Assembly: GCF_019721995.1 (NCBI RefSeq)
Contig: NZ_BLYC01000029.1
Location: forward strand, 1-41,741
Direction: 5' to 3'
DNA length: 41,741 nt
From: Bathymodiolus japonicus methanotrophic gill symbiont
GTDB lineage: Bacteria > Pseudomonadota > Gammaproteobacteria > Methylococcales > Methylomonadaceae
The notes under the pieces are model-generated. The model did not search any database. It saw only the letters and a list, made by a program, of their open reading frames with translations, and was not told where the DNA came from. The position numbers and the translations under genes are program-made. Positions 2,105 through 33,342 of this stretch are shown here, piece by piece (position 1 is the first letter of the stretch; each line of letters starts with the position of its first letter).

Positions 2105-2111
2105 GTTTACC

Positions 2112-4288: not shown

Positions 4289-4410
4289 TAATAAAGTCTC
4301 AATTTATTAAAATTTAGAGTAAATATTACACAGCATAAAATATTTCTTGAAGATAAACCCTCATTACTTAATTGTGTAAACCCTAGTATACCTATGTAGC
4401 AGACTATGTA

Positions 4411-4437
4411 AGTAGCTAATTAATTGAATTAGCTACT
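4411..4437. terminator. Palindrome at the 3' end of the helicase gene
   Basis: Two perfect 11-bp arms (AGTAGCTAATT and its complement) are separated by 5 bp and overlap the stop codon at 4429-4431. This could be a weak or bidirectional transcription terminator between the helicase gene and the membrane operon. No clear T-tract follows on the minus strand, so it may only attenuate or protect mRNA. Confidence 0.35.
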
Positions 4438-7400
4438 CTCAGTATACCTACACCCATTTTTTGAGTAGTTACTACACCCATAAAAATCACCGTTTTTCCC
4501 TTTTTTCAAATTCATAAACCCACCACATCGAACACATATCCGAGGGGAAAAATCACATAAGTGACATGAGTGATCACCTGTCGTTTTATTTGTCTGAATA
4601 ATACCTACGAAACACTCAGGACAAGAATTAACAGGCTTAGTATAAGTACACCCTGATTTAAAATTAGAGCAACCGTAAAAGAGGCCATAGTTTCCTTGCC
4701 TGATACTGACCAACCCACTGGAACAATTAGGGCAATGCTCAGGAAGAATTTTATTAGACGTTACATGTAAAACCTCTTCTTCATATTCATCACTTAGAAT
4801 TTCTTTGCTAAAAGGGGAGACGTTTGATTGGTCACCTAAAATGAAAATAGTCTTTTTTGCCCTGGTTAGCGCAACATAAAATAGCCGTCTCTCTTCTGCT
4901 TGCTCAAACTCTTCGCCATCAGATAACACTAAATCAATAACGGGGTCATCTTCTATATTTGATGGAAATCCATATTTACCACCTTCTAATCCTAATATAA
5001 CAACAAAATCAGCTTCAAGGCCTTTTGATCCATGTACTGTCATTTGTCTTAGCGTTAGGTTGGTATGCTTATCTTGTAGTGTTTTAAAGTTTTCTAATAA
5101 CTTAAATCTATACCTGGCTAGAATTAATACACTAGCATCGTCTTGTTTCTCTGTAATTCGCCGTAAAATATTATCGACAGTGTTATGAATATCATTTACA
5201 TCCCAAAACAGTAAAACAGGCTTTTCTACAGCCTTTGTTAGTGTCTTAATTTCCTTTTTTATTTGATATGGATTTGTTTCTACAAACTTCTGAGATACGT
5301 TAGATATTTTATCGCTATATCGAAAAGAGTAATCCAGCTTTACGACCTCTGAAAATCCAAAGAACTCAGAAAAGTCTCTAAAAATTGATATATCACTACC
5401 TGAAAATCTATTGATAGATTGCCAGTCATCACCTACTGCAGTTAAAACACAGTCCTCTTTTTGCTTTAACAATGACTGTATTAGTTCTGCTCTTGCCACT
5501 GAAATATCTTGAAACTCATCAGCTAAAATAAACTTATAAGGCGACTTGTACTTACCTGACTTTACATAGTTTGTTGCAAGCTCAATCATGTCATTAAAAT
5601 CTATAACGCCCTTTTCTTTTTTAATCTGTTCGTATCGTTCTAGTGTTGGTTCAGCAATATCTATAAATAATTGTGACCGCTCATCATGCAAAGCCCTTTC
5701 GCGTAAAGTAGCAAAGCTATGCTTGTTAGACCTCACATGATTAATAAAGGTTGCCATAATCTTAGCAAATGTTGAAACTCGCCCTGAATCCTTTAACTGC
5801 TTAAGTGCCTCTTCATAAGGCATTGGGTTAAGCGCTATATCATTTTCTTTTAATATTCTCTCTAGACTTTCAAGTAAGTGACCTTCACTTCTCATCCAGC
5901 TAAATGTTTCGATTAACGTCGTATCATTTTCTTGGTGTAAATTACGTTTCCACTTAATTCCTTCATTATATTTTTCTCTATCAATGAATGGAGCGGTATT
6001 TCCTTTCTTATCTATTCCAAAATGCTCTAAATATATTTCATACTCTGGCAAGTAAAAATCAGGGTGATATTGGCCATACTGCTCAGTCGCGGTATCAAAC
6101 TCATAAGCACGCTCGTACTCATAGTCGATTCCATTTATAAATAAGAAATTTGCTATTTCAAGTTCTTCAAAACTTTTTACTCTTTCCGCATTCTTCAGCG
6201 TAATTAAAGTTTCTCTTATGGGCAGTAGATTACTATCATAAATATAATTATTGTATTCGACTTCATTCTCAAAATCGAAGTCACTTTTATACGTTGAAAC
6301 ATGATAAACAAAGAATTTAAGTAACTTTGCATACAACTCAACATCTGTTACTTGTTCTTCAATAATGCCCCAAATCAACTTTTCTAGTGCTAAGGAGCTT
6401 TGTTCCCAAGGTGCTAATGATGGCTTTTTATTCGTTGATTTAGCAATGATTTCTAAGCCTAAAGAATGAAATGTTTTAGCCTTAATATCCTCTAGTTGTA
6501 ATTTCTCATATACTCGCTCTTTTATCTCAGTGGCGGCTGATTTGTTAAAGGCAACTAATAATATTTCATCCTCAAAAGCTAAGCCTTTTTTGACTAAATA
6601 CCCTGCTCTGGCAACCATGACACTTGTTTTTCCTGACCCCGCACCAGCAATAACTAAATTAGCCGTTTCATTAATAATTGAAGCCTCAACCTGACGTTCT
6701 GTTAGAGGGTTCTTTTCAACCTCGGAAAAAAAAGAATGGTACTTATTTTTCTCATCTTGCATAAAAAGATGATTGTGCTTACCTCTAACAAGCTCTCCTT
6801 TACTTTCAAGCAAGACTACAAAATCAAAAACATTACTACAAACTTGATCTTCTGGTGGTCTGTCGAGATAAGTAAATGAATGACCAAAACTAGAAATGTC
6901 TATGAGTACCTTATCTAGCGTTATTTTTTTGAAATACTGATCTTTTTTAGGGTAGTTATGAAAAGCTTCACAAGCCTCTAAGAGTTTTTCATAGTAATAA
7001 ATTTCAAATAAGGATCGTGATAATAGCTCATGAAATTTCCGTGAATGCTTTTTCGGAATCCCTGTGAAGTTTAGATTTTCACCCGTATTGAGAGTTATTT
7101 GTAACCTACTCCAAATGATCCCTTCGGATAAAGAAACATCATCTATTGCACTCAATCCAATTAAATTATTTTCCCCATTTTTTGTATGGCTGGATAATTT
7201 TGTTTTATCGAGATTGATCTCTTTATGTTTAGTGACATTAAATAATTTCGAAAAATACCCTGGAAACAATGATTTCTCATACCGTCCAATAAACTTAACT
7301 TTTGCTAAAGATTTAAAATTTGGGGTTTCCGGTAATTTTTCATATTCTTTAAGTAAGATCCGTTTGTCTTCTTTAGAGATGATTTGCTTACTTATATTGG

Positions 7401-7626
7401 GTATTCCATCACCCTGCTTAGTCACCGTAAAATTATCTTTATTTAACCAAGTTCCTATTACTACGGTTATAAGTAATACGTGTGGCATTGCTGCAATTAA
7501 ACAGATAGGGTTTAAGCAAAAACCAAAAAACAAAAACTGATTTAATACCATAACAACAACAAAAGTACCCGTATACATTGAAGCCACTTCTTTTGTTTTT
7601 TCTGATAGTTTTTTAAACCACTCCAT
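4429..7626 (-). CDS. UvrD/helicase IV (HelD)-like helicase with inserted PD-(D/E)xK-like domain and zinc ribbons
   Basis: The 1065-aa protein is an SF1A 3'-5' DNA helicase related to helicase IV but much longer than the roughly 684 aa of the E. coli enzyme. Two hydrophobic segments near residues 15-60 suggest membrane attachment. Walker A is AGAGSGKTS near 326, followed by FNKSAATEI and KTFHSLG. Walker B is LADEFQDIS near 700, motif III VGDDWQSINRFSG near 733, and motif VI RLFYVALTRAKK near 915. Between motifs lies an insertion (about 480-575) with FEELEIANFL, YHPDFYL, YLEHFG and a later Lys, the pattern of an embedded PD-(D/E)xK nuclease. The last 100 residues hold repeated CxxC pairs (CPNC, CPEC, CHLC, CVRC) with YGCSN, as in topoisomerase IA zinc ribbons. 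It starts 6 bp after the small secreted-protein gene. Confidence 0.85.
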   Translation of the reverse strand: MEWFKKLSEKTKEVASMYTGTFVVVMVLNQFLFFGFCLNPICLIAAMPHVLLITVVIGTWLNKDNFTVTKQGDGIPNISKQIISKEDKRILLKEYEKLPETPNFKSLAKVKFIGRYEKSLFPGYFSKLFNVTKHKEINLDKTKLSSHTKNGENNLIGLSAIDDVSLSEGIIWSRLQITLNTGENLNFTGIPKKHSRKFHELLSRSLFEIYYYEKLLEACEAFHNYPKKDQYFKKITLDKVLIDISSFGHSFTYLDRPPEDQVCSNVFDFVVLLESKGELVRGKHNHLFMQDEKNKYHSFFSEVEKNPLTERQVEASIINETANLVIAGAGSGKTSVMVARAGYLVKKGLAFEDEILLVAFNKSAATEIKERVYEKLQLEDIKAKTFHSLGLEIIAKSTNKKPSLAPWEQSSLALEKLIWGIIEEQVTDVELYAKLLKFFVYHVSTYKSDFDFENEVEYNNYIYDSNLLPIRETLITLKNAERVKSFEELEIANFLFINGIDYEYERAYEFDTATEQYGQYHPDFYLPEYEIYLEHFGIDKKGNTAPFIDREKYNEGIKWKRNLHQENDTTLIETFSWMRSEGHLLESLERILKENDIALNPMPYEEALKQLKDSGRVSTFAKIMATFINHVRSNKHSFATLRERALHDERSQLFIDIAEPTLERYEQIKKEKGVIDFNDMIELATNYVKSGKYKSPYKFILADEFQDISVARAELIQSLLKQKEDCVLTAVGDDWQSINRFSGSDISIFRDFSEFFGFSEVVKLDYSFRYSDKISNVSQKFVETNPYQIKKEIKTLTKAVEKPVLLFWDVNDIHNTVDNILRRITEKQDDASVLILARYRFKLLENFKTLQDKHTNLTLRQMTVHGSKGLEADFVVILGLEGGKYGFPSNIEDDPVIDLVLSDGEEFEQAEERRLFYVALTRAKKTIFILGDQSNVSPFSKEILSDEYEEEVLHVTSNKILPEHCPNCSSGLVSIRQGNYGLFYGCSNFKSGCTYTKPVNSCPECFVGIIQTNKTTGDHSCHLCDFSPRICVRCGGFMNLKKGKNGDFYGCSNYSKNGCRYTESS

Positions 7627-17438: not shown

Positions 17439-20400
17439 ATGACAAATAGTATTAAACACACGCAATTACCCAGAGTTGGATACACATACCAAGATTTTAT
17501 GTGTATCCAACTATTAGTGGAATGGTTTCATAATCCGGATAAATATCAGTGGGTCTGTATTGAAGGAACAAAAACTGAGGGCAATTTCAAAGGTCTTGAC
17601 GATATTATTGCTCTCAATAAAGAGGGGTATTACGAACTTTTTCAAGTAAAGTTTACAATAGATTCTAAACGGGAGGACTTGAAACTTAGTTTTGACTGGT
17701 TATTAGATAAAACTAAGCGGGGCACATCATTTTTACAAAAGTGGGAAAGTGATACTGCAAAATATAATGCAGAAAATCTTTTATCTATTGCAGCCTTAAA
17801 AACTAATCGTATTCCTGACAATGAAGTTGCCAAGTCCCTCCATAACAACAAAATTAATATTGATCTAATCCCAGAAAGGTATTTAGAAAAGATAAAAGAA
17901 CAGCTCGAAGGGTACCAAAAAGCCAAGAAATTTTTTGATATCTTTACATTTGATCATAGTCAGCCAGAAATAGAGGATCTTGAAAACAAATTAAAAGATG
18001 AGCTGATACCAGATCACTGCCCTACTGAAGAAGGATGGCTCCGCTTTTTAAAAGCTGTTGAAAGATGGGCTACACGAAAAAATGAACCTGCCCCTGTTGG
18101 AAAAATTAAAATTGACCATATACGAGAGCTTCTAACAGCAGGTGTTTCTCGTTCAATATCTCAGTTTTTTGAAATCCCAGAAGGCTATACGCCTCCTTCG
18201 GAAGAATTTCATTTGGATATTCTTGAGAAAATAAAATCAACTGGTTGTTGGGTTATTTCAGGACTCCCTGGTATGGGGAAAAGCACTTACCTCTCCTATT
18301 TGACTGAAAAAATAATAGAACAAGACATTCCTGTAATTAGACATCATTATTCACTATCTGCGCAAAGCGTGATTGATAGAGTTTCTTATCCTAATGCAGC
18401 ACGCTCTTTGCAAAACCAATTACAGCTATTGTTCTCTTCACTGTTCATTTCTCGTGATTATGATCTGGAAAATCTCGACGAATGGATAAGAATGGCTTCA
18501 GATGAAGCTAACCAACAAAGCAAAAAATTAATTGTAATTATTGACGGGCTGGACCATGTAGGAAGAGAGCGTCCAAACATTAGTCAACTTGGACATTTGA
18601 TAAATAGACTCATACCATTACGTGACAAAATTTGCCTAATTTTAGGAACACAGCCGGTCAGTGACACGCATCTTCCCTCCTCACTGACCTCTAATGTGCC
18701 TAGAGATCAATACTGGCTAAATTTACCACTAATGGATCTGAGTGCAATTAAATGCTGGATAGAGGGCCTATCAAATAGCAAAAAAGTCACCTTAATCGGA
18801 ACGGAGGATTATAAAGCAAGAGAACTGGTCGAAATATCTGAGGCATTTCTTAAAGTTTCGGGTGGGTATCCTTTGCATTTAATTTACTCAATAAAAAGCC
18901 TCACATCATATAAGAAACATTTAAATAAATACGACATAGAAAGACTTCCAACTTGTCCAGATGGAGACATTCATAACTATTACGCAACTTTGTGGTCTAA
19001 CTTATCCGCAAGCGCAAGAGAAATACTTTTATTAATTGCCTGTGTCGAATTTCCTTGGCCTAACGAGAATAGTATTGGTTCCTGCTTTCAAGATAGTCTG
19101 CTTTTTAAAGAAGCTTTTCACGAGATACAGCACCTAGTTGAAAAAAGGCGCAGTGGAATTATTCCTTTTCATGGAAGCATCTTGGTTTTTCTTAAAAACA
19201 AGCAGGAATACCAAGATTCCCTCAATGAACTATTACTAAAAGTACAAAAATGGTTGGCAGAGTCCGCACCTGAGTATTGGCGATGGGGTTGGGAATGGAT
19301 AGTTGAAGCAAACTTGGAAGAAGTAAAGCCTCTGATCAACGGGATTAACCGTGAATGGTTAGTAGAATCTTTTTGTAAAGGTTATCCCTTACAGCATATT
19401 GAACATATTATCTCAATGGCTGAAAAAGTTGCGCTTGAATATAATATGTTTCCGGAATTGGTTGGCCTACGCCTTATTAAGATCAGGCTAATAAATGGTC
19501 CAGAATACCAGCTACAAGAATATGATGAATTTTTAAAATGTGCGCTTAAATGGAATCCTGAAAGCTATGGGCTTTTATGGAGAGCAGATAACTTACGGCT
19601 ACTTGATGATAAAGAAATTCCAGTTGTATCTCTTCTCTTTAAAGACAGAGATAACTTAGTAGCTGAAGATTGCCTAGAAGAAGTTTTGAGACGGTTAAAA
19701 TTTTACGCCCGGATCAGGGATTCATCACAAAGTGACAAAATTGATACATTAACCAATGCCGTTATTGACATTCTGGTTAATATTTCTAGTCTGGATATAA
19801 GAAGGATACTCGCCTTTCTAAACCAGCTGAGAGACAAAGAAACTTTCTTTAAAAAAACACTCAATCAGTTAGTTGTAGCTGGAAATGGCCATTTAATATT
19901 GGAGATTCCATCATCCGTAGTACCTGATGGATTTAAATATCTGTATTGGGATTATTTCGTATTGGCATGCTGTAACGAAGGGATAGAGCTTACCAATCGT
20001 CCTGAAAAAAATCAGATTGGATCAAGCGCACTGGGAGTTATCGCTCTATTGTTAGAAAAGCAGTCTATAGATACCAAGCTTCTGGAAAAACCTTCGCTTC
20101 CAGATAAGCATGAAAATGCCACTGATGACTACTTTTATAACCTTTTCTTTATCTCTTTAGCTAAACAGTTAGAGAAAAAGGTCAATATAGAGAACCCCGT
20201 CAATGTGTCAGTTGATAGCGTAGAATTATTTATCAGTAAGGCCTCATCCGCTTTCAAATATGCGGCACACTATATTGCCACAAAAGTAGAAAAAGAAGAT
20301 GGCATAGATATTTTTGAAATATATAAATTAATCAAGCAGGCAAAATTACCTGCTCGTAAGGAATGCGATTTTGATAGCACAAGAATTTGGCATTTTATTT

Positions 20401-22736
20401 CCAAAACACTTACCCGCATATCCTTGGATATGTACCTCTTGCTAAGCAATACCAGAAGCCTTAAAAAGCTAAATTCGGAATCTTTTGAAACATTGAAAGA
20501 TAATAGCTGGTGGCATTCTCAATCTTGGCTGGAGCAGGCAAACTACAAATCCATACATATTATTCCAAAAGAGGTTTCAGAACAGGAAATCCGAACCTCT
20601 TTATCTTCTTTAGTTGCCAAACAGGACAACACCTCAAGGTTGGCAAACGATAGCCTTGACCTTGCAAAGTTATCCTGCTTACTAAGTTTAAACAAAGAAA
20701 CGCAACAGTGCCTAAAGTGGGCAGCTCAACATACATTAGGATATGGGTGGAGAAAAGATACTACTTTCAGTGAACTATACGAAGCCATGGAGGCATGCTC
20801 TGAATATGGTGTAGGCAATATCCCTGATTGGTTACGCCGTGTAGCCCCCTTTACAAACGATATATTTGATTATACAGAGAAGGAAATCAGGCATATTCCT
20901 GGCTGGTATATAGACTTATTGGCAAAGCACTCTCCTGAAAGATTAGTTGATGAGTTTGACTATCACTTAAGCAACCAAAACTGGTCTATAGCACACGATA
21001 TTTTAGAAAAATTTGTTGAACATTTCCCCCTAAACACTCCTGCCGAACATGCTTTTTTACGATGCCTTACTTCTTATGAAGCTCTATCAAAATTAAGAGA
21101 TAGAGCGGAGAAAAACCCTTCGTTGTCGCCACTCTATAAATCACAATGCGATTTTCTTGGAGGGTTTCCTCCCGCACCAAAAGAACATTCTTCAAATTCT
21201 TTTGAAGAAAAGAATATCGATATAAAACCAGAAACTTACCCGCCAGAGCAGTTAGATGATCTAGATGAAGAACTTAATGATAGAGGTCTCTACTTGGCAG
21301 ATGAGTTTCTTGAGTCTTGGATATCCTATTGGGTAGAACAAGATCGTGGCCTCGATGTCATTAAAGCGTTTGAAAAAGTTTGGAATGACGAACATAGCGA
21401 CTCAATACGTTTGGGACGCAGCCTGCATGTCATATTCTCAATAAGCCAGAAGCTTCAAGGAACAAAAAAAGCCTATCAATGGGCTATTCGGGATATACGT
21501 ACAAATAACCATTGGGGACGATGGTCGGGGTCAAGGGCCGAAGAATGCTTAAATAAATATGCAAAGATTTATAAATCCGATTGGAAAACTCTTTTAATTG
21601 ATACAACAAAGGGAGAGCTCATAACACTCAGAAGAAACGAATGGGTTGTTGTTCCTACGAGCCAATTAGTGAGCTATTTGCTATCCGCCGAACAACCTGA
21701 TTTAGCTTGCCGCATAACTGAGGTGATGTTAGAAAGCCTGGAAAATGAAATTGCACACCTTCCTATCTCATCCCTTCATTGGTATGAACAGCCAGTGCTA
21801 TCAGATCAAGTCGCTTCCCGTTTGCTGCTTCTGTATTCTAAATGGCCCGACCGCTTAGCGCGTTTAAGGACAGCAAATGAATTTTCTCTTCTGCTTAATA
21901 GTAGTCCTGACTTTAGAAAGCTGTATTTGGAACATCTAGGAAAGCAAAATTACGAGATTGAAATAACAGACTTACTATCAATTCTTCTTTTAACAGAAGG
22001 GCAGATATTTTCAGATGAGGAGTTACTGGATTTCATTAAATACCCTTCCATTCTTTCTGATGAAATATTACGCAGGCTTGGATATAAAGATGACGATCAA
22101 AGAGAAATAGCTTGTTATCACTCTAAGTTAACTTCTGATAGTTACGTTGAGTCAGACAGGTTTGAAAAATCAAAAGACGGAATGGCTCCAGTTTACTTTG
22201 GTATTATAAATGAATTGGGTGACCGCTTGGGTTATCCTCTCTACCAGCATATGTCATCTGAGTGGGATATAATTTCTACTAGACAAGATTTCTTTTATTT
22301 TAATCCTTACGATTTTTGTGGTGATCAGTTTTATCGGCAAGACAGGATTTCATGCAGTTTTTCTACTCAGATAGAAAGTGTTGTACTATCAGCTTATCTA
22401 AGAACACTTTCTTTTGCCTATACTAACTTAAAAGCATCGTATGATGAGGTTTCCGCCTTAGGACTTCAGGTGGCTCCTTTTGGTGGGCTTTGTAGCTCAT
22501 TATTACCGTCATCTAAACCTGATAATTGGCCTATTATATCAAAGTTAAGTAAAGAAGATGAGCTTCCAACTAACTCGGACCTCTCAAACTACCTAGATGG
22601 CTTGATAAATTGTGAACCAATCATTCTAAGAGCAAATGGCCCAGTTTTACACGATCTTTCAGGAGTTTGTTATGATCTTGAGGTTAGTTTTGTTTTTGAT
22701 GTAGATACCCCAGTGGCACAATCGGTGTTATCTTGA
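17439..22736 (+). CDS. Avs-like STAND NTPase with N-terminal PD-(D/E)xK-type nuclease domain
   Basis: The 1765-aa protein has three parts. Residues 1-150 look like a restriction-type nuclease: YTYQDFMCIQLLVEWF, then GLDDIIALNKEGYYELFQVKF, where D, E and the QxK form a PD-(D/E)xK-like site as in Cap4/Mrr-type effectors. A STAND NTPase core follows with Walker A GLPGMGKST near 275-283 and Walker B LIVIIDGLDH near 364-373. The remaining 1200 residues are helical and repetitive, the usual sensor part. This is the layout of Avs anti-phage proteins, which bind a phage protein, oligomerise and activate the effector domain. The gene stands alone, 37 bp from an IS66 end, with no clear Shine-Dalgarno; no frameshift was seen. 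Assignment to a named Avs subtype is not possible by eye. Confidence 0.75.
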   Translation: MTNSIKHTQLPRVGYTYQDFMCIQLLVEWFHNPDKYQWVCIEGTKTEGNFKGLDDIIALNKEGYYELFQVKFTIDSKREDLKLSFDWLLDKTKRGTSFLQKWESDTAKYNAENLLSIAALKTNRIPDNEVAKSLHNNKINIDLIPERYLEKIKEQLEGYQKAKKFFDIFTFDHSQPEIEDLENKLKDELIPDHCPTEEGWLRFLKAVERWATRKNEPAPVGKIKIDHIRELLTAGVSRSISQFFEIPEGYTPPSEEFHLDILEKIKSTGCWVISGLPGMGKSTYLSYLTEKIIEQDIPVIRHHYSLSAQSVIDRVSYPNAARSLQNQLQLLFSSLFISRDYDLENLDEWIRMASDEANQQSKKLIVIIDGLDHVGRERPNISQLGHLINRLIPLRDKICLILGTQPVSDTHLPSSLTSNVPRDQYWLNLPLMDLSAIKCWIEGLSNSKKVTLIGTEDYKARELVEISEAFLKVSGGYPLHLIYSIKSLTSYKKHLNKYDIERLPTCPDGDIHNYYATLWSNLSASAREILLLIACVEFPWPNENSIGSCFQDSLLFKEAFHEIQHLVEKRRSGIIPFHGSILVFLKNKQEYQDSLNELLLKVQKWLAESAPEYWRWGWEWIVEANLEEVKPLINGINREWLVESFCKGYPLQHIEHIISMAEKVALEYNMFPELVGLRLIKIRLINGPEYQLQEYDEFLKCALKWNPESYGLLWRADNLRLLDDKEIPVVSLLFKDRDNLVAEDCLEEVLRRLKFYARIRDSSQSDKIDTLTNAVIDILVNISSLDIRRILAFLNQLRDKETFFKKTLNQLVVAGNGHLILEIPSSVVPDGFKYLYWDYFVLACCNEGIELTNRPEKNQIGSSALGVIALLLEKQSIDTKLLEKPSLPDKHENATDDYFYNLFFISLAKQLEKKVNIENPVNVSVDSVELFISKASSAFKYAAHYIATKVEKEDGIDIFEIYKLIKQAKLPARKECDFDSTRIWHFISKTLTRISLDMYLLLSNTRSLKKLNSESFETLKDNSWWHSQSWLEQANYKSIHIIPKEVSEQEIRTSLSSLVAKQDNTSRLANDSLDLAKLSCLLSLNKETQQCLKWAAQHTLGYGWRKDTTFSELYEAMEACSEYGVGNIPDWLRRVAPFTNDIFDYTEKEIRHIPGWYIDLLAKHSPERLVDEFDYHLSNQNWSIAHDILEKFVEHFPLNTPAEHAFLRCLTSYEALSKLRDRAEKNPSLSPLYKSQCDFLGGFPPAPKEHSSNSFEEKNIDIKPETYPPEQLDDLDEELNDRGLYLADEFLESWISYWVEQDRGLDVIKAFEKVWNDEHSDSIRLGRSLHVIFSISQKLQGTKKAYQWAIRDIRTNNHWGRWSGSRAEECLNKYAKIYKSDWKTLLIDTTKGELITLRRNEWVVVPTSQLVSYLLSAEQPDLACRITEVMLESLENEIAHLPISSLHWYEQPVLSDQVASRLLLLYSKWPDRLARLRTANEFSLLLNSSPDFRKLYLEHLGKQNYEIEITDLLSILLLTEGQIFSDEELLDFIKYPSILSDEILRRLGYKDDDQREIACYHSKLTSDSYVESDRFEKSKDGMAPVYFGIINELGDRLGYPLYQHMSSEWDIISTRQDFFYFNPYDFCGDQFYRQDRISCSFSTQIESVVLSAYLRTLSFAYTNLKASYDEVSALGLQVAPFGGLCSSLLPSSKPDNWPIISKLSKEDELPTNSDLSNYLDGLINCEPIILRANGPVLHDLSGVCYDLEVSFVFDVDTPVAQSVLS

Positions 22737-24035: not shown

Positions 24036-24295
24036 CGCTGTCAGCCCCGGACGGGCTGATAGTCTCCAGAAGGCGCAGGGAAATTTGCCAATCCGAAGTG
24101 CGCGATAGCGCGCGAGGGAGGCTAAAATTTTATCCCGAATAGTTGTAGAGCCATTTGTGGTAGCCATGACTGAGCTGCTTTGTGCTCAGTCTGTGGCGGA
24201 CGCAGGGCGGCTGGAGCATCTCCTATTCGCTGCGTAGGTGAACGAATTACGGCGACAGGAGTCCCGGAATTTCGTGAGGTAGCATGGCGCGCCTG
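24036..24295 (-). repeat. Second structured repeat family, copy 1 (260 bp)
   Basis: Read on the minus strand it begins CAGGCGCGCCATGCTACC and ends CCGGGGCTGACAGCG. The end shares the GACTAYCAGCC...GGCTG-CAGCG form of type B structured elements, so the two families appear modular. It is nearly identical to 24425-24684. Open frames within it differ between copies in what they continue into and are not credible genes. Confidence 0.65.
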
Positions 24296-24424
24296 TTGTT
24301 GGGTCGGGACGAGGTGACGAGGACGAATCGGGGCCGCCGGAGGCATAAGTGGTCGCGTTAAGTTTTTGCTGCTTGCTTGGGCTGGGATGCCCAAAACAAG
24401 CTTTCGCAAAAATAGCGACTCCCC
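24296..24424 (-). repeat. 5'-half fragment of a type A structured element
   Basis: Carries the first 130 bp or so of type A (up to CCCGACCCAACAA, read on the minus strand), with the 5' stem-loop complete and the 3' half missing. It sits exactly between two copies of the second repeat family. Confidence 0.7.
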
Positions 24425-24684
24425 CGCTGTCAGCCCCGGACGGGCTGATAGTCTCCAGAAGGCGCAGGGAAATTTGCCAATCCGAAGTGCGCGATAGCGC
24501 GCGAGGGAGGCTAAAATTTTATCCCGAATAGCCGTAGAGCCATTTGTGGTAGCCATGACTGAGCTGCTTTGTGCTCAGTCTGTGGCGGACGCAGGGCGGC
24601 TGGAGCATCTCCTATTCGCTGCGTAGGTGAACGAATTACGGCGACAGGAGTCCCGGAATTTCGTGAGGTAGCATGGCGCGCCTG
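24425..24684 (-). repeat. Second structured repeat family, copy 2 (260 bp)
   Basis: Almost base-for-base the same as 24036-24295. Its right edge falls inside the IS6 transposase (after the codons for VFF and before YVRYGVSY), so it has replaced the first 20 or so codons of that gene. Confidence 0.65.
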
Positions 24685-25603
24685 TATGTCAGGTATGGCG
24701 TTTCGTATCGCGACCTTGAAGAAATTATGGAAGAAAGAGGTGTTGAAGTGGATCATGCTACGCTCAATCGTTGGGTTATCCGTTATTCTCCTGCCATTGC
24801 TGTGAAAGCTAAATCTCAGAAACGAGGAACCAATAAATCGTGGCGCATGGATGAAACGTATATCAAAGTTATCGGGGAGTCGCTATTTTTGCGAAAGCTT
24901 GTTTTGGGCATCCCAGCCCAAGCAAGCAGCAAAAACTTAACGCGACCACTTATGCCTCCGGCGGCCCCGATTCGTCCTCGTCACCTCGTCCCGACCCAAC
25001 AAGGGGTCGGAACATAGGCTCCAAATGACTTGACGCCGTGTCGGATGGCCTTTTATTTTGTCTCCACCTTCGCTAACGCTCAGACTCCGACAAAACAACG
25101 GCCCTACGGCTATCGCGGACTAAAAATCTTCACTTCGCTAAAGCTCCGTTTCCAGGATTTTCAGCGAGGGTCAGTGGACCTATTTATACCGAGCTGTTGA
25201 TAGTCACGGGGATACGCTTGATTTCATGCTTTCTGAGTACCGTGATGAAGAGGTTGCAACCGAATTTTTCAAACAAACGATTAACAATAATGGCTTTCTT
25301 GATAAGGTCGTTATGGATAAAAGTGGCGCTAACTATGCAGGATTAGCCAATATTAACCTCTTGTTAATCCTCGCTGGATTTGCCACTATGATCGACATAT
25401 TACAGGTTAAATATTTGAATAACATCATCGAACAGGATCATCGATTTATCAAAAAAATAACAAAGCCAATGATGTGCTTTAAAGCGTTTCACTCCGCTCA
25501 AGCAACCATTGATGGAATTGAAACAGCACATATGATCCGAAAGGGGCAATTGTCTGAGGAAAATATTCCTGCTTATAAGCAGTTTATGGCTTTAGCAGGA
25601 TAG
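24685..25603 (+). pseudogene. IS6-family transposase (copy 2), 5'-truncated and interrupted
   Basis: The frame begins inside the gene at YVRYGVSYRDLEEIMEERGVEVD, runs to DETYIKV, is split by structured element copy F, and resumes QWTYLYRAVDSHGDTLDFML. It ends FMALAG with stop at 25601-25603. Unlike copy 1, its C-terminus is in frame and the site used by element copy C is empty here. The right inverted repeat TTATTGCGACAGAACC follows at 25631-25646. Confidence 0.85.
24872..25166 (+). repeat. Structured element copy F (type A, 295 bp), sense in IS6 transposase
   Basis: It begins TCGGGGAGTCGC and ends AGGATTTTCAGCG. Exact removal gives GTTAAGGGTCAGTGG, which matches the uninterrupted IS6 copy 1 (GTTAAGGGACAGTGG) with one substitution, and restores the codons for VKGQW. 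There is no target duplication. Confidence 0.85.
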
Positions 25604-25899: not shown

Positions 25900-26480
25900 C
25901 CCAGATAGCTAGTCAAAACTATGCACTTTAGTGCAAAGTGCTTTAGCTGCTACACACTTATGTTAAACCTTGTTCTATGAATGAGCAAAGGCGAAGTGGT
26001 GATACAGTTACGCGATTCACGGCTCACGCCTCACTTGGTATGGGTAACAAAGTATCGATATCCGATATTAAAGGGCGATATTAAAAAGCGTTGTCGTGAA
26101 TTGATAATTCAGGTATGTGATGCAGAGGATGTCCAGATCTTAAAAGGAGGGTAAGTAAAGATCATGTCCACATGCATATAGAATATCCTCCAAAATTATG
26201 TATCAGTTATTTAGTAAAGCGGTTGAAAGGTTGTACTTCTCGCATGTTGCAGTAGGAATATCCTGCCTTAAAGAAACGCTATTGGGGGCGGCACTTTTGG
26301 GCGATAGGTTATGGAGGTTGGTCGACAGGAAACATTACTGAAGAAATGGTTCAGGAATATCTTGAGCACCACCGCGATCCTTCAAACAAAGATAGTGGAA
26401 GCATGATTCTTGAATAGTTAGTTTTGGACTTTCAGTCCAGTCGCAACCTATGCACTTTCAGTGCATAGTGGTTGAGTAAA
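25900..26480 (+). mobile_element. Decayed IS200-type element
   Basis: Hairpins of the type GCACTTTAGTGC (near 25921) and TATGCACTTTCAGTGCATA (near 26450-26468) flank a broken Y1 transposase. They match the subterminal palindromes of IS200-type ends. Confidence 0.65.
25981..26417 (+). pseudogene. IS200-type TnpA pseudogene
   Basis: The frame starts at 25981 (MSKGEVVIQLRDSRLTPHLV) with WVTKYRYPILKGDIKKRC. A lost base near 26148 shifts the frame just before the HUH motif DHVHMHIEYPP, and a CAG-to-TAG change gives MLQ-stop-EYPALKKRYWG. The end EEMVQEYLEHH is intact. It cannot make active Y1 transposase. Confidence 0.75.
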
Positions 26481-26575: not shown

Positions 26576-28006
26576 ATGAAAGCAACCTTTATTGGCCATC
26601 AGTCATGGCTTATATCATCTAAAAAAACATATATTTTGATTGATCCCCTACTAAAATCCGTTTTTGGTGCGAGCGAAAGATCATTCTGTTCAATTTTTCC
26701 ATTCAGGAATATAGATATTGCGGAAATGCCGAAAATTGATGCTATTTTTTTAAGCCACGAACACGCTGATCATTTTTGCATCGAATCACTAAACGAAATT
26801 TCCCCAAAGCCTCCAGTCTATGTTGGAGCATTAATGCTAAACAATGTTAAGTATGCATGCAAGAAGATGGGGTATGATGTCAAAATTGTTAATGAGTTAA
26901 CACCAATTACTATCGGATCTATCAAAATAACACTATTTCATGCGGATCAGAGCACGCCTTACTGGGAAAACAGAGTTTATCAGCTATTATTTGAAGATTT
27001 GAATTCAGAGGCTAGCTTCTTTTTAGCAGTAGATGCAGCTATGTCGTCGAACTATGAAGGAATGATCGAACGAAACGACAAAAAAAAACCAGATATTGTT
27101 GCAGTTTCTAATAATGCACAAATAACAGACTATGGTCGAAGATCAGCATTTGAGAATGCTTTGTCCTTAGAATCCGAAGTTCCTGCTAAAAATGGCCCGG
27201 CTTTGTTGAATGTTTATGACCAGTTATTAGTTTCTTACTTGAAAGGTCTCCCAGAGATTGAAAATATTGCGATTTGTGGTGGTGGATTTATAAAAGGTAC
27301 AGAGGACTTGAGTCCCCCACCTTTTTCGGACGGTGCTTTGATTGTGGAAAAATTGAACCACGTATTCAGTTCAGGAAAAATCTGGAATTTAATACCAGGC
27401 CAGGTGATATCAATAAAAAACCACATTGTCTCTACGGCGCAGAGAGTATCTTGGATCACTCTAACGACGAAAGATAAAATCATCGAAGATTTTGGATTGC
27501 CTAAACCAGTATCCACTGAAAAATTATTTTATCCTTATATTCAAGAAGAAATAACCGAATGTGAATTAAGCGATGCAAAAATCAGGATACGCCAATGTAT
27601 TGAAGATATGCTCCCAGGGATATTATTGTCTGAACCTGGAAAATTTGCTTTCAATCGATACATTATTTCTAATAACTTTTCACCGCAGATTGATTTCATT
27701 TTTTCCACACCTGATTTAAATATATCTTTTAAACTTAGTGTCGACCTATGTACTGGCTCTATTAGCGAAAGCCACTCATCTTGTACGGCACCGAGTAAAG
27801 TAACAATGTTTATTTCTGATTTCATCGCGGTTTTGGATGGTGCCGTAGAAATATGGGACCTTACAGGTTCTTCAGTTAAGATTGAATATGAAAATGAAAA
27901 CTGCAACCCAATCCCTTTTTTCTACGCATATTTCGGTGAGCACAATCAACAAAACCTTGCAATTAAGATGGTAGATAAAAAAATTTCGATGGGAGGTCGA
28001 AAATGA
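26576..28006 (+). CDS. MBL-fold metallohydrolase with intact metal site
   Basis: The 476-aa protein opens KATFIGHQSWLISSKKTYILIDPLL and carries LSHEHADHF near residues 60-68, the HxHxDH metal-binding signature. These features match UlaG-like MBL-fold hydrolases. The C-terminal 250 residues are extra and may form a substrate-binding domain. The substrate is unknown. The gene leads a cluster of two MBL-fold genes, a kinase-like gene and an ABC exporter. Its stop overlaps the next start as ATGA, and the Shine-Dalgarno GGAGGT of the next gene lies in its last codons. Confidence 0.75.
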   Translation: MKATFIGHQSWLISSKKTYILIDPLLKSVFGASERSFCSIFPFRNIDIAEMPKIDAIFLSHEHADHFCIESLNEISPKPPVYVGALMLNNVKYACKKMGYDVKIVNELTPITIGSIKITLFHADQSTPYWENRVYQLLFEDLNSEASFFLAVDAAMSSNYEGMIERNDKKKPDIVAVSNNAQITDYGRRSAFENALSLESEVPAKNGPALLNVYDQLLVSYLKGLPEIENIAICGGGFIKGTEDLSPPPFSDGALIVEKLNHVFSSGKIWNLIPGQVISIKNHIVSTAQRVSWITLTTKDKIIEDFGLPKPVSTEKLFYPYIQEEITECELSDAKIRIRQCIEDMLPGILLSEPGKFAFNRYIISNNFSPQIDFIFSTPDLNISFKLSVDLCTGSISESHSSCTAPSKVTMFISDFIAVLDGAVEIWDLTGSSVKIEYENENCNPIPFFYAYFGEHNQQNLAIKMVDKKISMGGRK

Positions 28007-29415
28007 AACTAACCCATCTAGGACATGAGAGTTGGATCATTGAGTTAAATGGAAAAAATTATTTACTAGATCCTTTGTTACGTGAAACATTTGGAACGTG
28101 CGACGAACTACCTTTTTATGTAACTCCTGGCAGATCGATTGAACACAAATTATATGAATCAATCGACGGTGTATTTTTAACAACTGAGTATTTCCAGCAT
28201 TTCGATTTAAAATCCCTAGAACTGCTTCCTAAAAGGGTAAATTATTTTTTTCCTAATACTTTTTCAAAGGAAGCACAGAAGGCACTTTGCCGAATCGCAG
28301 GCTGTGAGAAAAGACTGAAAGCTCTAAGAATCGCTGAAGAGTTCAAGAGCGAATCCATGGGGTTGAAGTTCGTTCCGCCAAGCTCAGATACTGTTTTTTG
28401 GGATAGTCGGGTGTGCAGCCTGATGGTTAGTGAGTCTAACGTTTTGACAGATTCACAAGACTGGATATATATCCAGTCAGACACAGCTATTCCAGATAGT
28501 ATTCTAGAATTCATACCTAAATCTTGGAACTCTATTCCGGCAGGAATAATTGTAGTGAACCATTTCCAGAAATGGGAGGAAGTAGGATATTCGGCGAATG
28601 ATAACTTTATTGGTGATCAATTACAGCACTGGACACCACAATCATATTTCCGGTTCATGTCAAATGTCTTTCCTCTGCATATCAACCCATTGAATGCAAC
28701 CAAAGCTTATTTCTTAACTGGCGGTCAATACGACTTAGTAAATGTTCAGAGACCTAGATCGACATTCAGTAATTTACTCCTAGCTAAGGATGTGGAATCG
28801 ATGAGTTTGAATGTACTTGTAGATGCCCCAGAAGCTGGACACTTCTACTCTTGGAATGGAATTAGGTGGTTAAGAGAGGTTGATTCAGAATTCGTCATAA
28901 AATGTGATGCACCATCAGGGGATGTTAGAAAACCATTTAGCATTACACAGCAGATTAGTGCCAATCGGGAAGAATCGGATGATACAGATTTAAAGATCAC
29001 ACAGTGGCTTGCGTATTTGAAACAAATTCTTCTATTTTCTAGCTGTGGGCACCGACTTATATTTACTGACTCGTACATTAATGGTGCATTAGGCCCCAGA
29101 AGATTTTGTGTTCAGCTAGTAAACGGATCTCAATCGTGTCAATACGTATTCGATTTCTCAAAATCTGAATTTGAATACGAAGAATTCACTGATCAACTAG
29201 CTTTGATTCAATATCCATCTGGATTCAAGATTCACACACATGATTTAGTAGCAGCTATAAATGGCAAAGCTACAATCGCTGAGATAGCCCATGCTGGAAT
29301 CTTTCAATGGTACGTGGGAACGCCAATAGATTCTGTTATCGGAATGCTCTACACCGCTTTTGCTGAATTTATGCCGAATGGAATAGCAGCTAAGAAATAT
29401 GATACATATTTATGA
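28003..29415 (+). CDS. MBL-fold paralogue lacking the metal-binding motif
   Basis: At 470 aa it has the same length and start pattern (KLTHLGHESWIIELNGKNYLLDPLL) as the upstream enzyme. The place of HEHADHF is taken by TTEYFQHFD, which loses three of the four metal ligands. It is therefore probably a pseudoenzyme that binds substrate or the active paralogue. The C-terminal region, with FKIHTHDLVAAINGKATIAEI, resembles helical small-molecule-binding domains only loosely. GGAGGT lies 6 bp before its ATG. Its stop abuts the start of the kinase gene. Confidence 0.7.
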   Translation: MKLTHLGHESWIIELNGKNYLLDPLLRETFGTCDELPFYVTPGRSIEHKLYESIDGVFLTTEYFQHFDLKSLELLPKRVNYFFPNTFSKEAQKALCRIAGCEKRLKALRIAEEFKSESMGLKFVPPSSDTVFWDSRVCSLMVSESNVLTDSQDWIYIQSDTAIPDSILEFIPKSWNSIPAGIIVVNHFQKWEEVGYSANDNFIGDQLQHWTPQSYFRFMSNVFPLHINPLNATKAYFLTGGQYDLVNVQRPRSTFSNLLLAKDVESMSLNVLVDAPEAGHFYSWNGIRWLREVDSEFVIKCDAPSGDVRKPFSITQQISANREESDDTDLKITQWLAYLKQILLFSSCGHRLIFTDSYINGALGPRRFCVQLVNGSQSCQYVFDFSKSEFEYEEFTDQLALIQYPSGFKIHTHDLVAAINGKATIAEIAHAGIFQWYVGTPIDSVIGMLYTAFAEFMPNGIAAKKYDTYL

Positions 29416-30258
29416 ATGTCGACTAAAAAAATAGATAATAGTATTTTTTGTACTCTGCTAAAAGGGCGCTTTATCGAGGGACTAAATAATTTACCTTCTA
29501 AATGGAAAATCGAAAAATTTAAAACCATTGCTGATCGCTATCTAGGAACCAAGAGCGAATCACTCACCGCGATTAAATTCAGTAATGAAAGCGGTATTTT
29601 CAGAATCGGAAATAGTGCAGTGATCAAAATTTTCTCATCACGAAAAGAATATGAGCGAGAACTTCTTGCAAATTTGATCCTGTCAGGTGAGGGTATTTGT
29701 CAAATGTTAGATTCGTCGGATGATCTGTTAGTTATTAAGTTCGAGTTTCTCGAGACGGAAAAAATAAAAGCCAATGATATAGAAAATGCTTTCTCCTTAC
29801 TGGGGAGATTACATTTTCGAGGGATATCCGCACTGGTTGAAAGTGCTAATGTCATCCCCCCTGATTTTGATGAAGCAGGTCTCCCATTAATAAAGGCTGC
29901 CCTTGATGATTGGAATATAGAGCCATCATTTTCTATAAATGACCATAAAGCCGAAAATTATAGAATGTCTAACGGTGTGCTAACAAGGATTGATTTGGGC
30001 ACTATAAATTTTCGATACCCCCGATGGATTGACCTATTTACAATTGTTGATTTTGTATCAGATACTTCTTCTTTATCTATAGATATAAAAGAATTATGTG
30101 GTGTATATTTCGATTCCTGTAAAATTTCCTGCTCAAAAAGGAAATATGCAGTAGAAATATTGGATGCATTAGCGAGCGACTTAGGGTTTGAGTCACTTGA
30201 ACACTTTTGGAGCAAGGGAATTGAATTGATTGAAATTAATGGTTCTGTCGGACAGTGA
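29416..30258 (+). CDS. APH-like (aminoglycoside phosphotransferase-fold) kinase, C-terminus altered by IS6 end
   Basis: The 280-aa frame shows the APH/choline-kinase pattern: nucleotide-binding Lys in AVIKIF near residue 71, helix Glu in KEYERELLAN, catalytic loop INDHKAENY near 174 (D...N spacing of five, as in HGDxxxxN), and RIDLGTINF near 191 for the second metal-binding Asp. It starts with ATG immediately after the previous stop, with no Shine-Dalgarno, so it depends on coupling. The last five codons (GSVGQ) are read from an IS6-type end GGTTCTGTCGGACAG, so the native C-terminus has been cut or changed. It may phosphorylate a small molecule handled by the cluster. Confidence 0.7.
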   Translation: MSTKKIDNSIFCTLLKGRFIEGLNNLPSKWKIEKFKTIADRYLGTKSESLTAIKFSNESGIFRIGNSAVIKIFSSRKEYERELLANLILSGEGICQMLDSSDDLLVIKFEFLETEKIKANDIENAFSLLGRLHFRGISALVESANVIPPDFDEAGLPLIKAALDDWNIEPSFSINDHKAENYRMSNGVLTRIDLGTINFRYPRWIDLFTIVDFVSDTSSLSIDIKELCGVYFDSCKISCSKRKYAVEILDALASDLGFESLEHFWSKGIELIEINGSVGQ

Positions 30259-30597
30259 TTGAATTTGTCGATTCTGTTGCATAAAGTTAACTTCTCCACG
30301 TTATCTGCTATCATAATTCTCAATTTCACTAAACAACCACCCGCTAAACAGGCGCGCCATGCTACCTCACGAAATTACGGGACTCCTGTCGCCATAATTC
30401 GTTCACCTACGCAGCGGATGGGAGATGCCCTGAACGCCCTGCGTCCGCAACGACTACGCACAAAAGCCGCTTCGTCATTACTACCTCACTGGCTGTTTAC
30501 TTTACACCTATGTCTTGTCTTAATTCAACTGGTATATTGCTAGCTACTACTTCCAGAGGGTTATGCACTTATTATACGAATTCAGGGGTATTGATAA
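30241..30597. mobile_element. IS6 end fragment and second-family repeat between kinase and exporter genes
   Basis: From 30241 the sequence holds an IS6 terminal motif, then at 30273-30330 TTCTGTTGCATAAAG and TTATCTGCTATCATAATTCT, matching the IS6 left region. A truncated, divergent copy of the 260-bp second-family repeat follows from 30349 to about 30500 in plus orientation. The rest is AT-rich without a gene. This debris interrupts what was probably one operon. Confidence 0.6.
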
Positions 30598-33342
30598 TTG
30601 AAAAATTTTAAAATAACGACTTTAAAAATTCTTCAACGTCAGGCTGACCTATGGGTCCTTTTGCTTTTTATAGCTAGTATTGCCTCATCTTCAATTCCTG
30701 TTGCAATGGGTTTTAGTTTTTCCAGGTTGGTTACTGAAGAAACTTTTAACACGCAGGATATATATTTTGTAGCATTTCTTACATTTTTAGAAGTTCCGAT
30801 TACCCTAGCTAGACTTTTCGCATCAAGAAAAATACTAAATCGATCTGGAGAAATTTTCAGAAAACGATTTACATACAGGAATATATCAACCCCTGGGTCA
30901 GGAAAAATTATATATCGGAATTACAATCTTTACACCGACCACCTTATTGAAAGTTACCAGTTTATTTTTGATTGTTTTTTTATTGTTGTCCTAAGCATTT
31001 TATCCACTATTGAATTCGGCTTCTTACCAACTTTGGTAATACTGGGGTTAGTTCCTTTTGTTCCATTTATAAACCAATTGGTGAAAAAATCTAATTTCTA
31101 CTACCGCCACGTTCAAAAACTGACAGACCTAAGAACAGGAAAACTTAATTCGTTTACGAAATTTCGCACCAGCTATCAAGGCGTCAATAAACGTTCGGGC
31201 GCACAGTTTCGCCAACTATCAAAAATATTTAAATTTGAAATGTTTTGTCGTAATGCCGATTCTTTTCTCAAGTCACTTGAAATATACGTTAACGCATTTT
31301 CTAGATTTGCTCCATTTATAGTGGTTTCGATCATCCACTCTTATGTAGCCCCGGACGAGCTTCTCAATTCCAAGCAACTCTTCTGGGTCGGTCTTCCCAT
31401 AGTATCGAGTTTTTTTCGGCTTCCAAGGGGAATTGTGGCTCTAAAGATGCTAAAAAGAATCAAATTGGAGATGGATAACCGGTTGGGTTCTTTAATCAAC
31501 TCGAAACTTGACCAACCTGTGATAATAGGTGATAGTCAGGAGCTTTGGGAAGGAACTCTTACTGATAATGTGATTTTCCCAAATGCCGATGCAAGAAATG
31601 TAATTAATCACATGGGGCTTTGCGTTGAACTTGAGTTGGACGACCCTTTTTCAAATGATTACATAATACACAAAAAGGGAGGCAATATATCTGCTGGTCA
31701 AAGAACGCGGTTAATATTTGCTAGGGCAGTAGCAATTGCTGGTGAATCAAATATTCGGGTTGAATTAGATATCAGTTTTGATTCGCTAGACAACAATAAC
31801 AAGTTATTGATAAAAAAATGGCTTGATTCAAATTTGGTTGCTAGATTTATTTATTTAACAAGACGTAGTGCCGACACACTCAGAACTGACTCCGAATCAG
31901 AAGCGACTTACTCGGATTTACAAAAAGATAAATACTATACAGAAGGAGAAAGTTCCGTTTCGGAAAAAGAAGTATTTGGTGGATTCAACAAATTTATATT
32001 TTTCGCGAAATTAGTAAAATATACTTTTTTTCCAGCCATTTTGGCGGCAACCCTCAATGCTTTTATTTATATGCAAGCTGGCTCAACCGATAACCTTTCA
32101 GCTAAATGGATTACAGCTATTACTGCAATGTTTTTTGGTATACTTCTGATTTTAATTTCAGGGTGTTTAGTTGAGATGAAAATACGGAAAATTTCCGTTG
32201 CAAATATATTTTCTGGACTAACATCGACAAGCACTACCGAGCAGGATTGGAACACATCATTGTTTGTTGAACTCAATTATGTCGTAGAAGCATTCGCCTT
32301 CTATTGCCATGATTTAGTTTGGATAATTTCTTTATTTTCTGTGGCAGCCATAATGATGTACTGGAATATCGGAATTATAGGTCTTTTTTTTGCCACCGCC
32401 TTGCTTATTTTCTTTACTATGATTTATTTGTTTATATACCCTGACTTATCAAAAGCAAGGCAGCTTCTCGTCACCTCTTCCTCTAAATTCATCGAAGACC
32501 TTGATAACGTAACGTTGATTCAATCTGCTCCAAATACCACACCTATTCATTTAGTAACACTGGCTTTAAGAGAACAAATTTTATTAAAGGGAATTGTCTC
32601 TTGGACAGAGGCTAAATTCCACCTAATTTCAGTGAAGGAAAAAATAGGCTTATATGGAAATATAGGTTTAGGAATCATATATGTTTGTGTTTTTATTTCA
32701 TTTGGCATCGTTGAAGTTAGCAGCCCTATCCGGGCACTAATTTTAGGTTCTCTACTGGCAATTGATTCTGAGTGTATTCGCCTGTTTGCCGCAACTTCTG
32801 GATTCTCGGTTCAATTTGACGCATACAAAAAAATTGAATTATTTAGCAAAGATAGTGAATCTAATCATAAAATTAGTACATTTTCCCAAAAAGATTCAAT
32901 TCAAATAGAATCAATGCTTATTGAAAATATTCAATGCCAATCAAAAGAATTTTCTCTTAATCAAGGACTAAACAAACTTGATGCCCAGTCTGGAGCTGGA
33001 AAAAGTAGCCTAATGAAACAAATATTCTTAAATAAAAACAATGGGGTATTGTATTCGGCACAATATTATGATTGCGAATTTTTACAAGCCATCAAATGGA
33101 TCGAGTGCCAACAGTTTGGAACTAGTGTTGATGATGTTTTTGAAATCATTCGTGAAGAATCGGGAAATACCAAGCTTCTTTTATTGGACGAATGCTTTTT
33201 GCAGTTTGATAGGTATAGCAGTTCAGAATTATACGACAAATTGGAAAAATGGGCCATGGTTACAGGCAAGTCAGTGCTTTATGTCGATCATCGCATGACC
33301 AAAGGAATTGTTTTGAAGCTTACTGATCTTCTGTTAATCTGA
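30598..33342 (+). CDS. Single-chain double ABC exporter with motifs of one ATP site split between halves
   Basis: The 914-aa protein has two membrane domains (about 1-290 and 460-730) and two nucleotide-binding regions. The first region (about 300-430) lacks a Walker A but has an ABC signature-like ISAGQRTRLIFARAV near 363. The second (about 770-910) has Walker A AQSGAGKSS near 796, Walker B LLLLDECF near 860 and a switch-like DHR, but no LSGGQ. In ABC dimers Walker A of one half pairs with the signature of the other, so this chain would form exactly one catalytic site. The start is TTG at 30598, with AGGGG about 9 bp upstream and an in-frame stop just before it. Cargo is unknown; the MBL and kinase genes upstream suggest a small molecule or peptide. 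Confidence 0.8.
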   Translation: MKNFKITTLKILQRQADLWVLLLFIASIASSSIPVAMGFSFSRLVTEETFNTQDIYFVAFLTFLEVPITLARLFASRKILNRSGEIFRKRFTYRNISTPGSGKIIYRNYNLYTDHLIESYQFIFDCFFIVVLSILSTIEFGFLPTLVILGLVPFVPFINQLVKKSNFYYRHVQKLTDLRTGKLNSFTKFRTSYQGVNKRSGAQFRQLSKIFKFEMFCRNADSFLKSLEIYVNAFSRFAPFIVVSIIHSYVAPDELLNSKQLFWVGLPIVSSFFRLPRGIVALKMLKRIKLEMDNRLGSLINSKLDQPVIIGDSQELWEGTLTDNVIFPNADARNVINHMGLCVELELDDPFSNDYIIHKKGGNISAGQRTRLIFARAVAIAGESNIRVELDISFDSLDNNNKLLIKKWLDSNLVARFIYLTRRSADTLRTDSESEATYSDLQKDKYYTEGESSVSEKEVFGGFNKFIFFAKLVKYTFFPAILAATLNAFIYMQAGSTDNLSAKWITAITAMFFGILLILISGCLVEMKIRKISVANIFSGLTSTSTTEQDWNTSLFVELNYVVEAFAFYCHDLVWIISLFSVAAIMMYWNIGIIGLFFATALLIFFTMIYLFIYPDLSKARQLLVTSSSKFIEDLDNVTLIQSAPNTTPIHLVTLALREQILLKGIVSWTEAKFHLISVKEKIGLYGNIGLGIIYVCVFISFGIVEVSSPIRALILGSLLAIDSECIRLFAATSGFSVQFDAYKKIELFSKDSESNHKISTFSQKDSIQIESMLIENIQCQSKEFSLNQGLNKLDAQSGAGKSSLMKQIFLNKNNGVLYSAQYYDCEFLQAIKWIECQQFGTSVDDVFEIIREESGNTKLLLLDECFLQFDRYSSSELYDKLEKWAMVTGKSVLYVDHRMTKGIVLKLTDLLLI

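Follow-up and report, generated by a model that had tools for sequence, protein, structure and literature searches.

The methanotrophic gill symbiont of Bathymodiolus japonicus carries a gene for an APH-like kinase, closely followed by the end of an IS6-family element, and the locus raises the question of whether the element cut the kinase short or whether the kinase is complete and only its connection with the next gene was broken. The stretch of DNA analysed, hereafter the window, is a whole contig (C29, 41,741 bp) of a 4.97-Mb genome assembled in 109 contigs. Four genes of the window, encoding two MBL-fold proteins (MBL1 and MBL2), the kinase and an exporter, were found in this order as an operon, with all four reading frames open. 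The features of the locus are listed in Table 1.

Table 1. Features of the kinase locus; positions are counted from the first base of the window.
Feature	Position	Strand	Remarks
Broken IS200-type (Y1) transposase remnant	25981..26417	+	Pfam Y1_Tnp on 2 of 3 pieces
MBL-fold protein 1	26576..28006	+	476 aa; ORF, Pfam Lactamase_B_2 E 9.7e-10
MBL-fold protein 2	28003..29415	+	470 aa; start overlaps MBL1 by 4 bp
APH-like kinase gene	29416..30258	+	280 aa; start abuts MBL2; full-length by homologue comparison
29-bp near-tandem repeat	30227..30284	+	spans kinase tail, stop codon and IS6 tip; 20/29 identical
GGTTCTGTCG, decamer equal to the first 10 nt of the genome's IS6 tip	30241..30250	+	possible IS6 scar; encodes start of GSVGQ
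Kinase stop TGA	30256..30258	+	beyond IS6 homology
IS6-family left-end remnant	30270..30333	+	64 bp; ends before transposase start
Dispersed repeat copy, ~150 bp	30346..30495	+	at least 42 other places in genome
Fused ABC exporter	30598..33342	+	914 aa; TTG start 9 nt after AGGGG; no kinase overlap

The kinase reading frame did end in GSVGQ codons, as a preliminary description of this DNA had noted (GGT TCT GTC GGA CAG TGA, positions 30241-30258), and the IS6-derived DNA reported downstream of it was recovered as the 64-bp remnant, the left end of which started 11 nt after the kinase stop. When the symbiont genome was searched with positions 30190-30346, all of the 39 non-self matches listed began at 30268-30280 and ended at 30333 (the best 40 of 110 candidates were scored, including the query itself). 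The remnant could be assigned to the IS6 family by a terminal sequence that it has in common with IS6 copies of this genome that bear a transposase; a DDE_Tnp_IS240 match was found in transposases of the window, and the IS6 body of the remnant was 92% identical to its nearest copy. Moreover, we compared 17 other IS6 left ends from the fetched loci, after merging identical copies and dropping matches that began after query position 8. All 17 started with G(G/A)TTCTGT(C/T)GCATAAA and none read GGTTCTGTCGGACAG, the 15 nt preceding the kinase stop; 13 of them continued into a transposase start, as counted by eye. In a part of the literature on the IS6/IS26 family (PMC7986276), these elements are characterized by a tip with GG and an inner CTGT, and by a transposase start near the left end. 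The remnant likewise exhibited a GG tip and an inner CTGT, but corresponded to 64 bp of the left end only, without a second end.

IS6 homology begins at 30270 and extends to 30333, so that the TGA (30256-30258) is not part of it. The stop codon had been thought to be supplied by the transposon; however, the IS6 tip reads GCATAA at the corresponding place, and the TGA falls outside any recognised IS6 sequence. The related claim that the gene ends inside the IS6 terminus was not confirmed as such: only the initial 10 nt of GGTTCTGTCGGACAG agree with the tip, and the actual IS6 end begins at 30270.

The kinase had no match in Pfam, NCBIfam or PADLOC, and a sequence search of the PDB gave one chance-level match. 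As a query, it matched its own genome alone among 200 related genomes and had no homologue in the genome-contig collection or among plasmids; the MBL genes were therefore used as search queries instead. This search gave full-length matches on four Streptomyces/Kitasatospora plasmids and 27 loci in the genome-contig collection, four of them weak. A kinase was present downstream in 22 of the 23 loci examined, giving 26 homologues together with the four plasmids, about 16-25% identical. Isolated weak curated matches were seen among these kinases (to two Pfam models and one from NCBIfam, each seen in a single kinase out of 23).

A profile built from the 26 homologues matched the window kinase in two stretches, the second extending to position 290 of 295, which corresponds to residue 261; with the 5 non-actinobacterial homologues, a single match was obtained, of residues 37-252 to positions 27-246 of 264 (59.5 bits). 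In the alignment, the Leu261 column was followed by 3-13 residues in all 26 homologues, with 5-6 in the 21 actinobacterial ones, and by 19 in the window kinase, of which the tail (residues 262-280) was not confidently alignable. Residues K71, E82, D176 and D193, which we take to be the catalytic Lys, the Glu, the catalytic-loop Asp and the metal-binding Asp, respectively, were invariant in 23 out of 23 aligned kinases. An AlphaFold2 model computed from the homologue alignment (pTM 0.75, mean pLDDT 73) placed the last predicted helix at residues 261-275, directly ahead of GSVGQ; the model computed from the single sequence was unusable (pLDDT 38). The top Foldseek matches to the former model were APH(2'')-IIa and APH(2'')-Ib (E 2.8e-7, probability 1.00), both with a TM-score of only ~0.46 and an rmsd above 10 A, and the amicoumacin kinase was among the first ten. 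The window kinase thus has the invariant K71, E82, D176 and D193 and a fold similarity in common with APH/protein-kinase-like enzymes. It differs from APH enzymes in lacking a Pfam or NCBIfam match and in being located in a peptide-type cluster rather than in an antibiotic resistance context, and such an APH-like gene should not be read as antibiotic resistance.

These observations bear directly on the proposal that the IS6 insertion truncated the kinase, removing functional C-terminal residues and supplying the stop. The decamer could be an IS6 tip, and a standard tip placed at 30241 would read GSVA and then TAA, which makes an ancestral IS-supplied stop conceivable. Nevertheless, the kinase profile was covered to its end, 19 residues followed Leu261 as against 3-13 in 26 out of 26 homologues, the last predicted helix was complete, and the present stop was located outside IS6 homology. 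Truncation of this kind is highly unlikely and appears largely refuted by the homologue comparison, and the suspicion that the original C-terminus is missing found no support. Judged from the aligned sequences and the predicted structure, the kinase is essentially complete, without a missing conserved part, so that only its non-conserved tail could have changed; some loss of this tail is possible.

The preliminary description had also stated that the operon is split from its exporter at this point, and here comparison with relatives bore it out: the kinase and exporter are separated by a 339-bp gap in the window, whereas they overlap in all four relatives in which both genes were located. The order MBL1-MBL2-kinase-exporter was observed in Pseudomonas khavaziana (L057), P. 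chlororaphis (L059) and P. fluorescens (L060), and the order MBL-kinase-exporter in a Chlamydiales bacterium (L058), with overlaps of 4, 4, 17 and 20 bp, respectively. These values refer to the exporter starts chosen (GTG 9640 in L057, GTG 9637 in L059, ATG 9657 in L060 and ATG 8407 in L058); other in-frame starts exist in the relatives, and with a later one the overlap would be smaller or absent. From the kinase stop onwards, the gap consisted of 11 nt, the 64-bp IS6 remnant, 12 nt, the ~150-bp dispersed repeat and a 102-nt leader. At the window kinase stop, a GTGA was found that would permit a start-stop overlap as in L057 and L059. We did not retain this GTGA as proof of a native end, because 3 of the 4 bases that may precede TGA yield a start codon, which makes it weak evidence.

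Whether the last codons themselves bear a trace of the element depends on the decamer. GGTTCTGTCGGACAG and the IS6 tip were identical over the first 10 nt and alike at 12 of 15 positions overall; beyond the decamer, the window reads GACAG and the tip CATAA (2 of 5 alike), so that the agreement with the tip does not extend over the whole of 30241-30255. Even with one mismatch allowed, the 15-mer occurred nowhere else in the genome. For the 71 nt that separate the end of the conserved kinase part from the IS6 end, on one strand and under a Markov model of the operon, 2e-5 occurrences of the exact decamer and 7e-4 of a 12/15 match are expected, both values being post hoc and uncorrected. One other 12/15 match to the IS6 tip, apparently a chance one, was present in the window at 8250. 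Moreover, the decamer lies inside a near-tandem repeat, the units of which (30227-30255 and 30256-30284) were identical at 20 of 29 positions; two null models reached this in 3 and 5 of 20,000 simulations, again post hoc and uncorrected. With 9 mismatches in 29 positions, the two units have diverged further from each other than the IS6 body has from its nearest copy, which argues against a simple recent duplication.

It is possible, though rather unlikely, that the kinase end is native and the decamer a product of chance, with the TGA coming from an ancestral GTGA overlap and the IS6 element lying wholly downstream. The departure of the bases after the decamer from the IS6 tip, the uniqueness of the 15-mer in the genome, the exactly matching GTGA overlap in L057 and L059 and the existence of the apparently chance match at 8250 all agree with such an end; however, the expectation for an exact decamer in 71 nt is very low, the 29-bp repeat was rare in simulation, and the GTGA carries little weight given the number of start codons that can precede a TGA. 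From these figures we infer that the decamer was most likely left behind by IS6 activity at the junction, as a scar that stems either from an older IS6 end or from a duplication of flank and tip that has since diverged, and that the event most likely altered at most a non-conserved kinase tail. The decamer statistics thus lend weak support to the earlier suggestion that the GSVGQ codons came from IS6, and these codons may be IS6-derived.

The dispersed repeat of ~150 bp, which contains GGCGCGCC, occurred in at least 42 other places in the genome (45 matches; the best 40 of 948 candidates were scored). The link between kinase and exporter therefore crosses a repeat with many copies in a 109-contig assembly, and a chimera, in which a kinase side and an exporter side from different loci were joined through the repeat, had to be considered. 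Besides the number of repeat copies, the same repeat-exporter join was found on another contig (C21 58807-60230, L013 12808-14231), where the repeat and the first 391 codons of the exporter extended up to the contig end, with DNA to the left of them that differs from the window. Against a chimera, the order MBL1-MBL2-kinase-exporter equals that of the Pseudomonas operons, so that a random join is hardly likely, and the C21 and C29 copies differ at 2 of 1424 bases, so that both look real; we consider such an artefact extremely unlikely. Two inverted copies of the repeat were also seen in the window, at 24149-24296 and 24538-24685, and contig C45 carried a junction between the repeat and an IS6 left end that nearly coincides in place with that of the window.

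Overall, it is probable that the kinase is complete and is the third gene of an MBL1-MBL2-kinase-exporter operon, which in relatives lies beside a gene for a peptide ending in Tyr-His-x, and that IS6 activity split this operon. Starting from the observed coordinates, IS6 homology, full-length kinase alignment and overlap in relatives, we infer the following order of events at the junction. In the ancestral operon, kinase stop and exporter start probably overlapped, and an IS6-family element would have landed at or just after this overlap. The element would later have been cut down to its left 64 bp, with the dispersed repeat now behind it; the kinase and exporter would thereby have come to lie 339 bp apart, with the exporter starting from its own TTG. 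Taken narrowly, this is ordinary genome wear, in which an IS6 end and a repeat came between two operon genes.

The exporter itself seemed to consist of two fused half-transporters, the first nucleotide-binding domain (NBD1) having a signature-like SAGQ and lacking Walker A, and the second (NBD2) having Walker A and B, as judged by eye. Such complementary losses suggest a single composite ATPase site, common to most of the relatives aligned (L056-L060, among which the L060 ORF ends early). With the starts chosen, the window exporter aligned ~24-34 residues short of those of L057-L060, but not of that of L056, and an N-terminal stretch of it may have been lost. A promoter of the IS6 transposase was also considered as a driver of the exporter; one promoter-like site was present at 30287-30314, but shuffled sequences averaged 1.4 and the candidate was rejected. 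In an Enterobacteriaceae MAG (L056, 4819-7847), the MBL gene abutted the exporter without an APH-like kinase, and a 177-aa protein with GVFGVGKT near its start was encoded after the exporter.

Among the MBL-fold proteins, MBL1 retained an HxHxDH-type motif (SHEHADH) and was 30-36% identical to full-length proteins from Pseudomonas, the Chlamydiales bacterium and the Enterobacteriaceae MAG. In 369 genomes of the class, it had only partial N-terminal MBL matches outside its own genome, and a search of a phage collection gave one partial match only. The metal motif of MBL2 was altered, reading TTEYFQH in the window and TTEHLQH in the second MBL protein of Pseudomonas. The first His and the Asp of HxHxDH were absent from MBL2 in all four two-MBL operons (the window, L057, L059 and L060). 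By its motif, MBL2 would be a conserved, inactive-looking partner. As in UlaG-like/Lactamase_B_3 hydrolases, the proteins of the family have an N-terminal MBL fold, and 11 out of 15 members matched the metal-dependent hydrolase model PRK00685 (E up to 0.001), with the window protein far below the cut-off. Unlike these hydrolases, the operon MBL proteins are ~470-500 aa long and occur with a second copy with an altered metal motif; MBL family matches in the window covered the N-terminal part only, and the C-terminal half was conserved in the operon family.

In 26 out of 29 loci, the 1500 bp preceding the MBL gene contained a small ORF with Tyr-His-x at its end; these loci are partly close relatives and do not represent 26 independent cases (L072, L079 and L080 were the exceptions; L055, L081 and L082 were left out). 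The end of this ORF was located 57-170 bp from the MBL gene. Within a stricter frame of 400 bp, such an ORF was found upstream in 18 of the 29 loci and on the opposite strand in none; downstream, the controls gave 0 out of 29 in 400 bp, a space with only 13 small ORFs, and 1 out of 29 in 1500 bp. The next commonest terminal dipeptide upstream scored 2. The Tyr and His were invariant across 14 aligned peptides, and a profile of the precursor found the peptide in 6 out of 6 control genomes, five of which were not in the alignment, although two of these five are close to a member. Curated models gave isolated weak matches among the 14 precursors, one of them to XyeA, a RiPP precursor model, with an E of 0.0011, and further ones with an E above 0.03. 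The operon family thus exhibits the conserved small precursor ORF beside enzymes that is expected of a RiPP. In Caenimonas (L072), the pair adjoined a C39-peptidase ABC exporter and an HlyD protein, a combination typical of peptide export; no ORF ending in Tyr-His-x was found within 1500 bp upstream in this locus.

The operon family is best read as a RiPP-like cassette, in which the kinase would act on a ribosomally made peptide. A comparable arrangement exists in class V lanthipeptide clusters (CaoK, LxmK), in which an APH-like kinase is likewise encoded in a peptide cluster; in the part of the literature concerning CaoK (PMC9486802), this kinase phosphorylates Ser/Thr of the precursor. In the operon family, however, the kinase is accompanied by an MBL-fold protein and by a precursor with a Tyr-His-x end, and a HopA1-like lyase was absent from the annotations of the four plasmid neighbourhoods. 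The kinase and precursor of the cassette are without a convincing Pfam or NCBIfam model, and no description of a precursor-MBL-kinase cluster was found among the papers listed in the literature searched, a coverage outside which most subscription journals lie.

We lean slightly towards an undescribed RiPP class distributed over Pseudomonadota, Chlamydiota and Actinomycetota. This class would comprise a precursor of ~37-54 aa ending in Tyr-His-(Arg/His/Tyr), the terminal Tyr-His of which is the putative modified core; an MBL-fold protein of ~480 aa, sometimes with an inactive-looking copy; and a kinase encoded by an overlapping or abutting gene. Several Gram-negative members would also have a fused exporter, apparently with a single composite ATPase site. 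In the genome of the window, mobile elements would have struck the cassette on either side, so that the precursor was lost and the exporter uncoupled. The homologue search reveals that an unnamed precursor-MBL-kinase cassette is conserved across several phyla; its enzymes carry fold names only, and the invariant near-terminal Tyr-His makes its chemistry easy to test.

Near MBL1 of the window, no ORF ending in Tyr-His was found, leaving the window's own operon without a recognised RiPP precursor, and no match to the precursor profile was obtained in this genome up to an E of 10. The cassette could be an orphan, or its precursor may escape the profile; since no precursor was found, the operon may no longer work. 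The last piece of the IS200-type remnant reached up to 159 bp from MBL1, where it bordered on the precursor site of relatives (its pieces were searched apart, and one of the two Y1_Tnp matches was below the curated cut-off).

Elsewhere in the window, a 1765-aa protein encoded at 17439-22736 had weak Cap4-type nuclease and NACHT/STAND-like matches and is probably a defence protein. Possible defence genes were also seen with PADLOC in the region 707-7626, which contained a weak ZorA-like match at 707-2146 and a strong UvrD-helicase-like match at 4429-7626.
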